The notes below the pieces were generated by a model. It worked only from the letters and a program-made list of their open reading frames with translations, had not been told where the DNA came from and did no database searches. From NCBI RefSeq assembly GCF_010915705.1, contig NZ_JAAIKE010000002.1:248001-312000 (forward strand): 64,000 nt of DNA, read 5' to 3'. Below, in pieces: positions 27,455 through 30,152 of this stretch. The DNA comes from Pseudotabrizicola algicola (GTDB lineage Bacteria; Pseudomonadota; Alphaproteobacteria; Rhodobacterales; Rhodobacteraceae). Both the position numbers and the translations under genes were made by a program. The first letter of the stretch is position 1, and each line of letters begins with the position of its first letter.

Positions 27455-28704
27455 GCCGCGTCCAGCGCCGCCTGCAGCGCATCGGCCAACAGATCTGCCT
27501 CAGCCTGCCCGAACACCATCGGCGGACGGATCTTCAGCGTCGCACCGCCCCGACCGATCCGGTTCAGCAAGAACCCGCGCGCCACCATGTCCTCCACCAG
27601 ATCGGCGGCGAAATCGCCCGCCCCGTCACCCCCGAACTCCACGCCAAAGAACATGCCAACGCCCCGCACATTCTCAATCCGCCCGTGCCGCAGCGCACCC
27701 AACCGCTCCAGCAGATTGGCCGAGGTCGCCGCCCCCCGCGCCTGCAACCCCTCGTCCTCGATCACGTCCAGCGTTGCCAGACAGGCCGCCGCCGACACCG
27801 GATTGCCGCCAAAAGTGTTGAAATAGCCAAAGGCCTCGCGAAATGCGGCCATGACCTCGGGCCGCGCCAGACAGGCCGCGACCGGATGGCCATTCGCCAT
27901 CGGCTTGCCGATGGTCACCACATCGGGCGCAAAGCCCAGCCAGTCATGCCCCCAGAAATGGCTGCCCACCCGGCCAAAGCCCGGCTGCACCTCGTCGCAG
28001 AGGATAAGCCCGCCCGCGCGGCGCACCACCTCTACCGCAAGGTCCAGAAACCCCGGCGCAATCGCAGGCAACCCCTCATTGGCAAACACCGGGCACAGCA
28101 TCAGCCCGGAAAAGCCAAAGCCCGCCGCCTCCAGATCGGCAATCGCCGCCGCCACATGCGCGGCAAAGGCGGCAGGCTGCGCCTCGGCACTGCCGCCCAA
28201 AGGCGCCAGCGTCTCGGGCGACGGCACCAGACGCACATGCGGCGCGCGCCCTCCGATCGGTGGCCGCCGCGTGGAAAGCTGGCTCACCGCCGCCGTATTG
28301 CCGTGATAGGTCGCATCCGTCGCAATGATCCCCGTCTTGCCCGTCACCGCCTGTGCCATGCGCAGGGCCAGATCATTTGCTTCCGATCCGGTGCACACCA
28401 TGATCGCCTGCCGCACATCATGCCCCAGCGTCGCCACCAGCCGCTCGATGTAATCTAGCACCAGATCATGATGATAGCGCGTGTGGGTGTTCAGCACCGC
28501 CGCCTGCCGCGCAATCGCCTCCACCACACGCGGATGGCAATGCCCCACATGGGCGACGTTGTTATAGCAATCGACATAGCGCTTGCCCGCCTTGTCCCAC
28601 AACCATACCCCCTGCCCGCGCACGATATGCACCGGCCTGCGGTAGAAGGTCGGCACATTCGGCCCCATCAGCCGCGCGCGCCTTGCCTCGAGGCTCTCAG
28701 TCAT
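27451..28704 (-). CDS. Class III aminotransferase-fold PLP enzyme, phospho-lyase-like
   Basis: This 417-residue PLP enzyme resembles the ethanolamine-phosphate and phosphohydroxylysine phospho-lyases. Marks are YVDCYNNVAHVGHCHPRVVE, CTGSEANDLALRMAQ, ILCDEVQPGFGRVGSHFW (PLP-binding Asp) and VVTIGKPMANGHPVAA (Schiff-base Lys). The first ATG of the open frame (28719) is less likely than 28704, which overlaps the arfB stop by eight bases. It is coupled to the APH-type kinase. The expected reaction is elimination of phosphate and ammonia from a phosphorylated amino alcohol, giving an aldehyde. A plain transaminase remains possible. Confidence 0.85.
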   Translation of the reverse strand: MTESLEARRARLMGPNVPTFYRRPVHIVRGQGVWLWDKAGKRYVDCYNNVAHVGHCHPRVVEAIARQAAVLNTHTRYHHDLVLDYIERLVATLGHDVRQAIMVCTGSEANDLALRMAQAVTGKTGIIATDATYHGNTAAVSQLSTRRPPIGGRAPHVRLVPSPETLAPLGGSAEAQPAAFAAHVAAAIADLEAAGFGFSGLMLCPVFANEGLPAIAPGFLDLAVEVVRRAGGLILCDEVQPGFGRVGSHFWGHDWLGFAPDVVTIGKPMANGHPVAACLARPEVMAAFREAFGYFNTFGGNPVSAAACLATLDVIEDEGLQARGAATSANLLERLGALRHGRIENVRGVGMFFGVEFGGDGAGDFAADLVEDMVARGFLLNRIGRGGATLKIRPPMVFGQAEADLLADALQAALDAA

Positions 28705-29122
28705 CCTCGCCCTCCACACGGCCCCGTCCGGCCTTGACCTCGCCGCGCACCGACTTGGCCTTCAGCCGCCGCAAGGTGCTGCCATAGGTGGGCTTGGTCG
28801 CGACCCGCCGCTTGGGCGCCACCAGCGCCGCGCGCACCATCTCCACCAGCCGCTCCCGCGCCAGCTCGCGGTTGCGAGTCTGGCTCCGCGTCTCCTCGGC
28901 CCGGATCACGATGGCCCCGTCCAGCGTCCAGCGCCGCCCGGCCAGCTTCTTCAGCCGCGCCTTGACGGGGGCAGGCAGATGCGGCGACCGCTCCGCCTCA
29001 AAGCGCAACTCCACCGCCGTCTCCACCTTGTTCACATTCTGCCCGCCCGGCCCTTGCGAGCGGGTAAAGCTTTCCGTCAGCTCCCATTCGGCCAGCGACA
29101 CCGTGTCTGAAATCCTCAACAT
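28697..29122 (-). CDS. arfB: Alternative ribosome-rescue factor, peptidyl-tRNA hydrolase ArfB
   Basis: This 141-residue release-factor-like protein frees ribosomes stalled on non-stop mRNA. The catalytic GGQ is at residues 26-28 (RSQGPGGQNVNKV), followed by SQTRNRELAR. The Lys/Arg-rich C-terminal tail (APKRRVATKPTYGSTLRRLK) is the part that enters the empty mRNA channel. The ATG at 29122 is preferred over a GTG two codons earlier. The gene has a long leader (to about 29520) that holds an exceptional Shine-Dalgarno, a leader ORF and a terminator, suggesting attenuation. Confidence 0.93.
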   Translation of the reverse strand: MLRISDTVSLAEWELTESFTRSQGPGGQNVNKVETAVELRFEAERSPHLPAPVKARLKKLAGRRWTLDGAIVIRAEETRSQTRNRELARERLVEMVRAALVAPKRRVATKPTYGSTLRRLKAKSVRGEVKAGRGRVEGEDD

Positions 29123-29161
29123 GCCCACACCATAGCAAAGGCCCGCCCTGACGAAAGCCCT

Positions 29162-29194: not shown

Positions 29195-29297
29195 AGCGCA
29201 AACCCGAGGCGGCGCGCAGGCGCCAACGAGACAAAAAGAATGCGCGCATCGCGCGCGCTATCTGTAAACCGCCGGTCCGGCAGGGGGCCACAAAAGA

Positions 29298-29328
29298 GAA
29301 AGGATCGCCGGTTTGCGGCGATCCTTTC
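29298..29328 (-). terminator. Intrinsic terminator upstream of arfB
   Basis: GAAAGGATCGCCG (29298-29310) and CGGCGATCCTTTC (29316-29328) form a perfect 13-base stem with a five-base loop. On the minus strand the stem is followed by TCTCTTTTG, a fair T-tract, so it terminates minus-strand transcription about 170 bases before arfB. It is the strongest terminator I see in the window. The stem arms can pair instead with the leader Shine-Dalgarno. Confidence 0.8.
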
Positions 29329-29335
29329 CGAGTTC

Positions 29336-29344
29336 AAGGAGATG
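29336..29344 (-). promoter_or_regulatory. Segment that can sequester the leader Shine-Dalgarno
   Basis: On the minus strand CATCTCCTT can pair over nine positions (one G-U) with AAGGAGGTG at 29460-29468. It lies just before the terminator stem, about 115 bases downstream of the Shine-Dalgarno. Pairing would hide the leader ribosome site. Confidence 0.5.
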
Positions 29345-29397
29345 GGCCAGTTAGGTAACCTGTCCCAATCACGGGTTCGTTCACTAAGGGGTTGCCC

Positions 29398-29454
29398 CTA
29401 GAAAACACCCCCCATGACTGTCCCGACACGTCTCTCCAATATCACTCTAGACAC
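29398..29454 (-). CDS. Putative 18-residue leader peptide upstream of arfB
   Basis: A GTG start, seven bases after AAGGAGG, opens an 18-codon frame: MSRVILERRVGTVMGGVF. It ends at a TAG inside the small hairpin CTAGGGG-CAA-CCCCTTAG. No family is recognised and its length points to a leader peptide rather than a functional protein. Its ribosome site is the best in the window, which is odd for so short a frame. Translation is not proven by sequence alone. Confidence 0.5.
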   Translation of the reverse strand: MSRVILERRVGTVMGGVF

Positions 29455-29470
29455 TGGATCACCTCCTTTC
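29455..29470 (-). promoter_or_regulatory. Sixteen-base complement of the 16S rRNA 3' end
   Basis: On the minus strand GAAAGGAGGTGATCCA is the exact complement of the 3' tail of 16S rRNA (TGGATCACCTCCTTTC). Normal Shine-Dalgarno sites match over four to seven bases. The flanks do not resemble 16S rRNA, so it is not a piece of an rRNA gene. It precedes the 18-codon leader frame. Confidence 0.75.
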
Positions 29471-29489
29471 AAATGGTTGCCGATAGGGG

Positions 29490-29518
29490 TAGCCTGACAC
29501 AGATTTGGTGGCTGTCAA
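29490..29518 (-). promoter_or_regulatory. Possible promoter of the arfB leader
   Basis: A perfect -35 box TTGACA (29513-29518, minus strand) lies seven bases after the yhhQ stop codon. The -10 match is poor (AGGCTA at 17-base spacing). The same TTGACAGCC string starts the proposed yhhQ promoter at 30237. Transcription from yhhQ could also enter the leader. Confidence 0.4.
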
Positions 29519-29524
29519 ATCCTT

Positions 29525-30145
29525 TTACGCAATCCGTGCGCTCAATTTTCCGACAATTAACCGGAATGGCAAAAGTGCCACCAAAGCGAGCAAAAGCTTT
29601 ACACCCCAATCCGCCACCGCCAGAGACACCCACAAAGGCGCTGCCGGACCGAGCCCCAGAAGCGGCAAAACCTCGTTGGCCCAGGCCACGTCATTGCCCG
29701 GTTCCAGCCCCGACAGCGCGCCGGAAAACGCGATGGTGAAGAATAGCGCCGTATCGACGGATGACCCGATCAGTGTCGACACCAAGGGCGCGCGCCACCA
29801 TGCCCCGGCGCGAAAGCGGTCGAACACGGCCACATCCAAGAGTTGCGCCGTCAGGAAGGCCACCCCCGACCCGATGGCGATCCGCCATGTCACCAGCGGG
29901 CCGAACTCGCCCATGATCTGCGAGCCGATCAGCGAACAGGCCACCCCCACGGCAAAGCCCGTGAAAACAACCCGCCGCGCGGCCTGCGCGCCATAAAGCC
30001 GGTTGGTCAGGTCGGTCACCAGAAAGGCGATGGGATAGGTAAAGGCGCCCCATGTCAGCCATTGGCCGAACAGAAACTGCACCAGGATATTTGAGGCCAC
30101 GACAGTCGCGGCCATGGCAAGAATGCCGGGCAGAAGTTTTTGCAT
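29525..30145 (-). CDS. yhhQ: Queuosine precursor transporter YhhQ (VUT family)
   Basis: This is a 206-residue inner-membrane protein with about six hydrophobic segments. It imports preQ0/preQ1 for synthesis of queuosine, the modified base of tRNA wobble positions. Family features are ILVQFLFGQWLTWGAFTYPI, FLVTDLTNRLYGAQAARRVV and WRAPLVSTLIGSSVDTALFF. Two ATGs occur in tandem (30148 and 30145). The second has better spacing from the GGA of the ribosome site, so it is used here. A preQ1-I-like riboswitch at 30153-30184 directly precedes it, which strongly supports the function. Confidence 0.93.
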   Translation of the reverse strand: MQKLLPGILAMAATVVASNILVQFLFGQWLTWGAFTYPIAFLVTDLTNRLYGAQAARRVVFTGFAVGVACSLIGSQIMGEFGPLVTWRIAIGSGVAFLTAQLLDVAVFDRFRAGAWWRAPLVSTLIGSSVDTALFFTIAFSGALSGLEPGNDVAWANEVLPLLGLGPAAPLWVSLAVADWGVKLLLALVALLPFRLIVGKLSARIA

Positions 30146-30152
30146 CATGTGA

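Follow-up and report, generated by a model that had tools for sequence, protein, structure and literature searches.

A predicted CC2171-type small RNA with a 16S-tail complement and a short reading frame between yhhQ and arfB of Pseudotabrizicola algicola

The spacer between yhhQ and arfB in Pseudotabrizicola algicola, as read from the sequence, carries a small RNA element at about 29292-29518 on the minus strand of the window (the whole stretch of 64,000 nucleotides that was analysed). On that strand a -35-like element, a complement of the 16S rRNA tail, a start codon, a short open reading frame (ORF), a closing helix named P1 and a terminator follow one another in this order. The question raised by the locus is whether these parts make up a switch for arfB, as an earlier note on this DNA had proposed, or an RNA that stands alone. 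The features, with what each is based on, are these:

29513-29518, minus strand: -35-like element TTGACA (sequence; conservation in family loci)
29454-29470, minus strand: extended Shine-Dalgarno (SD) of 17 nt, a complement of the free tail of 16S rRNA (sequence and relatives)
29398-29454, minus strand: GTG micro-ORF of 18 codons (VSRVILERRVGTVMGGVF) plus stop TAG (translation, start and stop conservation)
29436-29457, minus strand: start-codon hairpin CCAGTGT...ATATTGG (helix 2, 96.8% of cells paired; folding)
29443-29447, minus strand: 5' arm of P1, within codons 3-5 (helix 3, 84.1% of cells paired)
29328-29334, minus strand: 3' arm of P1, AACTCGG, abutting the terminator at its 5' side (alignment, pairing tests)
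29335-29352, minus strand: putative lock, a 16S-tail-like segment AACTGGCCCATCTCCTTG, partner of the SD (helix 1, energies, folding, RYCTCC conservation)
29411-29420 (5' arm) and 29366-29375 (3' arm), minus strand: internal long hairpin (helices 5-6, 64-69% of cells paired; folding)
29384-29401, minus strand: hairpin containing the stop codon (helix 7, 72.0% of cells paired; folding)
29297-29329, minus strand: intrinsic terminator of 14 pairs with a T-rich tail to about 29292 (terminator scan; helix 8)
29525-30148, minus strand: yhhQ, queuosine precursor transporter (TIGR00697, above its cut-off)
28697-29128, minus strand: arfB, listed start GTG at 29128, ATG at 29122 likelier (NF006718)
29120-29157, minus strand: candidate arfB promoter, CTTTCG, 17 bases, TATGGT (29134-29129), ATG at 29122-29120 (weak by consensus)

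All the parts that the earlier note had described exist on the minus strand, at the coordinates it gave. The 16-base 16S complement GAAAGGAGGTGATCCA at 29470-29455 becomes 17 bases when the first G of the GTG is included (29470-29454), the GTG frame runs for 18 codons plus TAG (29454-29398), and the segment CATCTCCTT (29344-29336) can pair with the SD as claimed, the mimic stretch giving -21.6 kcal/mol. The terminator is there (29329-29297), with 14 pairs rather than the 13 counted earlier, and the naming of arfB agrees with NF006718 (183.4 bits, cut-off 100). The predicted RNA, 29486-29295, folds at -85.9 kcal/mol versus -60.55 +/- 4.24 kcal/mol for shuffled sequences (z -5.98), and 0/200 shuffles were as good. 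The 15-mer GAAAGGAGGTGATCC has a single copy on both strands of the searched 4.49-Mb genome (reversed control 0). An identity as tRNA or tmRNA was rejected, since the window contains none. Between the RNA and arfB, at 29242-29258 on the minus strand, a further palindrome, GCGCGCGCGATGCGCGC, resembles a terminator and is followed by a T-rich stretch.

An identity is offered by cmscan, in which 29478-29301 matches Rfam RF01867, "CC2171", over the full model (1-159) with E-values of 1.4e-5 and 5.1e-6. The alignment is thus full-length and significant, while the score of 37.1 bits misses the gathering cut-off of 75. A closing helix just before the terminator is also present, here with four standard pairs of GAGT with ACTC. 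The element shares with CC2171 the GAAAGGAGGUGAUCCAGUGUCU block, this P1-type helix and the terminator, all in the same order; its P1 sequence and middle part differ. Because it is a relative of CC2171 that nevertheless falls below the curated score of RF01867, we file it as a divergent branch, and on these sequence comparisons the element is a divergent branch or relative of the CC2171 family.

Matches to RF01867 occur in 120/149 genomes of the window's bacterial family (its own included; hereafter "the family"), one per genome and 0/149 over 75 bits, and in 66/289 genomes of its class, 10/289 of them over 75 bits. A plain pattern of SD plus start was found in 86/385 class genomes, with the reversed control having no match in the table, and the bearers of a stricter pattern, among the matches listed, included Bosea, Microvirga, Methylobacterium, Brevundimonas and Phenylobacterium. 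In three genomes (G158, G374 and G421) the RNA model or the pattern matched at least twice, so paralogous copies may exist. The loci read were 91 of the 120 family matches, roughly the best-scoring ones, and the 30 best class loci of the matches in 66 genomes. For the family alignment, A1, four divergent loci (L061, L065, L089 and L090) were excluded by eye ahead of counting, which left 87/91. Since all these loci were retrieved with a model containing both an SD and a P1-like helix, the presence of these two is partly by construction. Family genomes without a model match number 29; of the 20 listed, six gave a pattern match (L303-L308, one of them poor) and 15 also had no credible pattern match, and the RNA therefore seems dispensable in some family genomes.

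Landt et al. reportedly carried out a screen for Caulobacter sRNAs in 2008. CC2171 is a Caulobacter sRNA (Rfam RF01867), and the Rfam entry, in its accessible part, makes no mention of an ORF or a 16S contact. Two publications name CC2171/RF01867 as an RNA and, in the portions available, give no function for it (PMC5596092, PMC11701678). The portion available of the former lists a Mesorhizobium huakuii copy, MH_s33, as an RNA-seq product of 215 nt and has Northern blots covering nine putative novel sRNAs; a table in that of the latter adds one covarying pair for RF01867.

Does the RNA have its own promoter? In 82/91 family loci the top-scoring -35 is found 47-50 bases upstream of the SD, and an exact TTGACA occurs in 37/91 family loci versus 1/455 control windows. 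The class loci have an exact TTGACA in 1/30 and a mean score of 4.17 vs 3.58 in controls. The putative -10 of the window, AGGCTA at 29490-29495, is poor by E. coli rules, and a consensus promoter scan of the window did not list the proposed promoter of the RNA, from which transcription would start near 29483. The neighbours of the RNA differ between family and class. In the family, of whose 120 loci 91 were read, yhhQ is present in 87 and arfB in 79, all on the strand of the RNA, with arfB mostly close by and more than 200 nt away in three loci. In the other 12/91, each with at least 1.6 kb of downstream sequence, arfB is missing, and the RNA is retained where yhhQ or arfB is missing. In the class, neither gene turned up within about 1.5 kb in 30/30 loci when the window's ArfB and YhhQ served as tblastn queries. 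Ten ORFs at nine class loci could be assigned by Pfam to differing families, namely CinA, CoA transferase, NUDIX and DnaX (one locus), transglutaminase-like, pyridoxal decarboxylase, dihydroxy-acid dehydratase, ArsC, class IV aminotransferase and TetR; these ORFs were chosen by length and may not be the nearest genes, and 3/7 of the downstream ones lie on the opposite strand. Taken together, the comparison supports a stand-alone transcription unit with a putative promoter and a terminator of its own.

The proposal that the element attenuates arfB has to be weighed against this background. Under that proposal, a ribosome on the leader would decide whether the terminator forms, and arfB would be made by read-through. 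The gene is indeed co-directional with the RNA wherever the family has it (79/79 loci), the lock on the SD does exist, and in 31/78 family loci the ATG of arfB follows the terminator by 15-40 nt. Any -35 of arfB would overlap the terminator in these tight loci. A separate promoter would have hardly any space there, and read-through may occur in the family. Against the proposal, arfB has no conserved position downstream of the RNA (79/91 family loci, 0/30 class loci), and no conserved mutually exclusive antiterminator was found for the arm proposed, GGATC. The earlier note had let both terminator arms pair with the SD as well. The 5' arm can do so in 1/87 aligned relatives, which is the window's own sequence, and the 3' arm, TCCTTTC, in 2/87; CCTTT, a shorter motif common in terminators of this kind, occurs in 77/87. 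Pairing of the terminator arms with the SD was accordingly rejected as a conserved switch. There is also a signal in front of arfB itself. The best -10-like hexamer before its ATG scores 3.06 on average vs 2.42 in control windows, and TANNNT occurs in 14/79 loci vs 1-4 in controls. In the window, the weak -10-like TATGGT lies 17 bases after CTTTCG and a few bases before the ATG, and this candidate promoter was not listed by the consensus scan. This modest signal suggests a leaderless arfB message from a promoter of its own.

The 16S-complement site, the leader frame and the terminator are all kept in relatives, as the earlier note had required of its idea, and they are conserved far beyond arfB, for which reason the element is probably not the switch of arfB. 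What holds of the switch reading is a selected ribosome site and frame together with a 3' segment able to sequester the SD; the attenuation of arfB is unsupported, as a -35-like element and a covarying terminator belong to the RNA itself, which is also kept without arfB. With the gene not found near the 30 class loci and in 12/91 family loci, and with the GGATC arm in 1/87, we reject attenuation as very unlikely. A search of the literature, over titles and passages, found no described arfB attenuator.

The RNA also has a putative contact with the ribosome. The 16S tail CTGGATCACCTCCTTTCT, read in the relative G045, is matched by GAAAGGAGGTGATCCAG, and it is this relative's tail, not one of the own genome, that was used for the window's RNA. 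The 16S search found none in the own genome, nor in 4/5 and 6/9 others (10/14 in all), which probably reflects the reach of the search itself. The SD and this tail form a predicted duplex of -32.8 kcal/mol, stronger than that of the SD with the lock (-21.6 kcal/mol). The SD 15-mer is exact in 52/91 family and 21/30 class loci, with 1-3 changes in the remaining ones.

Outside the class, a DNA search matched 25/118 genomes, mostly over short and weak stretches, and the five best loci were read. Four of them (L267, L268, L269 and L271, in genomes G546, G772, G1001 and G924) belong to another class, a label of kinship meaning the same phylum and a different class, and may be "gamma-like". They have the same layout of SD, ORF, P1-like arms and terminator, and their ORFs are of 18 codons. 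The fifth, L270 (G1027), keeps the SD and start, then diverges, and has 25 codons. The SD of the four reads TAAGGAGGTGATC and fits a shorter 16S tail, GATCACCTCCTTA, which was read in 3/4 of the genomes; the sample is small and was retrieved via its SD. The P1 energies of the four are -5.9 to -10.0 kcal/mol, without a control. In the same four loci, where the 16S tail ends in CCTTA, the ORF contains ATGAGTGAGG or ATGGGTGAGG and finishes with TAACCC. That the SD fits a different tail in each of the two groups speaks most strongly for the whole 16S tail as its partner. Of 11 pattern matches outside the Alphaproteobacteria, two are look-alike RNAs, and nine (L245-L253) were rejected as false positives, being the starts of long coding frames that by eye resemble beta subunits of 2-oxoacid oxidoreductases. 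Only 6/120 named loci have an exact copy of the complement TGACAATGG, and 64 have it with at most one mismatch. GACAATG was present in 69/120 named loci (reversed control 0, complement control 5), and the 12 inspected of the 51 loci without it include several with GGCAATG, which would still pair via G-U.

The start codon is ATG, GTG or TTG at a conserved spacing in 121/121 loci of family and class, and GTG and ATG are seen to exchange at this position. At codon 19, 83/91 family loci have a stop, of all three kinds (TGA 41, TAG 33, TAA 9). TGG was observed 0 times vs 16.3 expected under independence, 0/100000 permutations gave zero TGG, and with one sequence per cluster of similar ones 41/48 clusters keep the stop, again in three kinds. 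This codon lies in the weakly supported helix 7, where TGG would pair equally well. The stops being kept and never replaced by TGG, translation looks selected in the family, and the conservation of SD, start and family stop supports selection on the ribosome-binding site and leader frame that the earlier note had described. In class loci the position of the stop varies. A stretch of the GAGCAGCCTTC / GGGCAGCCC type lies near the end of the ORF in L114, L118, L256-L258 and L263 as well as in the family stop region; it could fold into a hairpin whose loop reads CAGC or CAAC, and its recurrence across the class was noted by eye.

Two further explanations meet at this reading frame. The first makes the RNA a decoy comparable to 6S RNA, which would occupy free 30S subunits through an SD that covers the full tail. 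A complement to the whole free 16S tail, fitted to a different tail in another class, and a peptide that differs between groups would both suit such a sponge, but the selection on stop codons in the family suggests completed translation, beyond mere binding, and we think this explanation unlikely. The second takes the RNA for a small mRNA of a functional micropeptide, with the structure merely tuning its expression. Selected start and stop codons agree with it, as does an LER.VGT-like core found in many family peptides. This core, however, partly doubles as helices, and the peptides of other groups share little after their opening residues and vary in length between 14 and 31 codons; a functional micropeptide seems to us quite unlikely. 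Because the peptides differ between groups, it is translation rather than the peptide that seems to matter, and the micro-ORF is probably translated.

P1 pairs codons 3-6 with the bases immediately 5' of the terminator. When its arms were swapped between loci, the native pairing was better than the swapped one in the class (-13.2 vs -8.37 kcal/mol; native beats the mean swap in 28/30) and in the family (-11.01 vs -9.68 kcal/mol; 71/89). In the 78/89 family loci that have TCG before the terminator, 340/390 P1 cells are paired, versus 298.9 +/- 4.8 and a maximum of 317 in 2000 shuffles. For L067 and L091 no terminator was predicted, and at least those of L023, L054 and L084 were put in the wrong place, so the P1 counts are slightly lowered and a few spacings blurred. 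In A1 all five pairs of P1 have changes on both sides, for example GC 49 / AU 34 in one column pair, and one of the five fails in 35/87 sequences. The terminator (helix 8) has 10/10 counted pairs changed on both sides. The covariation score of the whole structure is 0.275 vs 0.176 shuffled and at most 0.127 slid, with the consensus structure derived from A1 itself, which favours its score.

The lock is the part by which family and class differ. Helix 1, between SD and lock, is paired in 98.3% of family cells, with nine cells unpaired and one-sided changes only, to G-U or U-G, so the ability of a 3' segment to pair with the SD, which the earlier note had seen, is conserved in the family. Partition functions were computed for 118 loci. 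In the 88 family RNAs the SD core is on average 0.14 unpaired, and with a value of 0.78 its partner lies in the last 24 nt ahead of the terminator. P1 is hardly present in this nested ensemble (0.63 expected pairs; at least four pairs in 6/88), and P1 and the lock together would therefore need a pseudoknot. In the 30 class RNAs P1 prevails, with 8.87 expected pairs. Their SD core is 0.49 unpaired and pairs chiefly with its own 5' surroundings, at 0.31, and less with the ORF, at 0.18. Pairing of the SD with downstream sequence has a mean z of -1.52 in the family and -1.31 in the class, and falls inside the best 5% of shuffles in 33/89 and 12/30. The best downstream partner of the SD lies inside the ORF in 28/30 class loci, with modest significance, and in several ORFs it resembles the 16S tail (CTGGATC..GCCTC). 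Judged by these comparisons, the SD lock is conserved in the window's family and is not the same in the class.

The lock segment itself allows one more explanation, in which the RNA would act in trans. An ACCUCC-type segment would block the SD of other mRNAs, and translation of the micro-ORF would free this seed. RYCTCC precedes the terminator in 79/87 family sequences, but an ACCUCC-type segment was not seen at that place in the class loci inspected, and we regard a trans-acting role of this kind as highly improbable.

What the comparison supports is thus a unit of its own with a 16S-tail complement, a translated micro-ORF, P1 and, in the family, an SD lock. The reading we lean towards, by a little, is an autonomous, translated small RNA of the CC2171 (RF01867) branch whose fold is gated by 30S binding. 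As it is transcribed, the nascent RNA would expose a near-perfect ribosome-binding site with about 100 nt still to be made. Timely binding of a 30S subunit would allow translation of the micro-ORF and leave the 3' segment free; otherwise the 3' segment would shut over the initiation region. The RNA would thereby report the initiation capacity of 30S subunits, and its two states may differ in stability, in 30S binding or in pairing in trans. That 30S binding competes with the closing of the lock during transcription, and that any output follows, we infer from this arrangement, and the main role of the RNA would be other than attenuation of arfB. Far more tentative, and on the whole doubtful, is a widespread class of ribosome-sensing RNAs in the Alphaproteobacteria and a second class, each with a complement of the host's 16S tail, a micro-ORF that often has 18 codons and a 3' lock that would shut over the initiation region if no 30S subunit came while the RNA was being made, and each reporting or buffering free 30S subunits.

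Some known systems come close. 6S RNA mimics the substrate of a central machine, and the element described here could do likewise, except that the machine would be the ribosome, by predicted complementarity. The cuckoo RNAs or anti-SD sRNAs of Rhodobacter have a CCUCC-like segment and an CCUCCUCCC motif; the element shares the former, whereas the latter is absent from 29292-29518. In leader-peptide attenuators such as trpL (rnTrpL/peTrpL, in the accessible part of PMC10117765), a short ORF is likewise followed by a terminator, but the element here is its own unit, with no class-wide downstream gene and no conserved antiterminator seen.

For the locus, this means that arfB is an unlikely main target of the RNA. 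For the CC2171 family, the data suggest roles for its parts, in contact with the 16S tail, in translation of a micro-ORF and in locking of initiation. If sensing or titration of 30S subunits is true, many Alphaproteobacteria that are easily handled in the laboratory would have in this RNA a direct gauge of their translation capacity.
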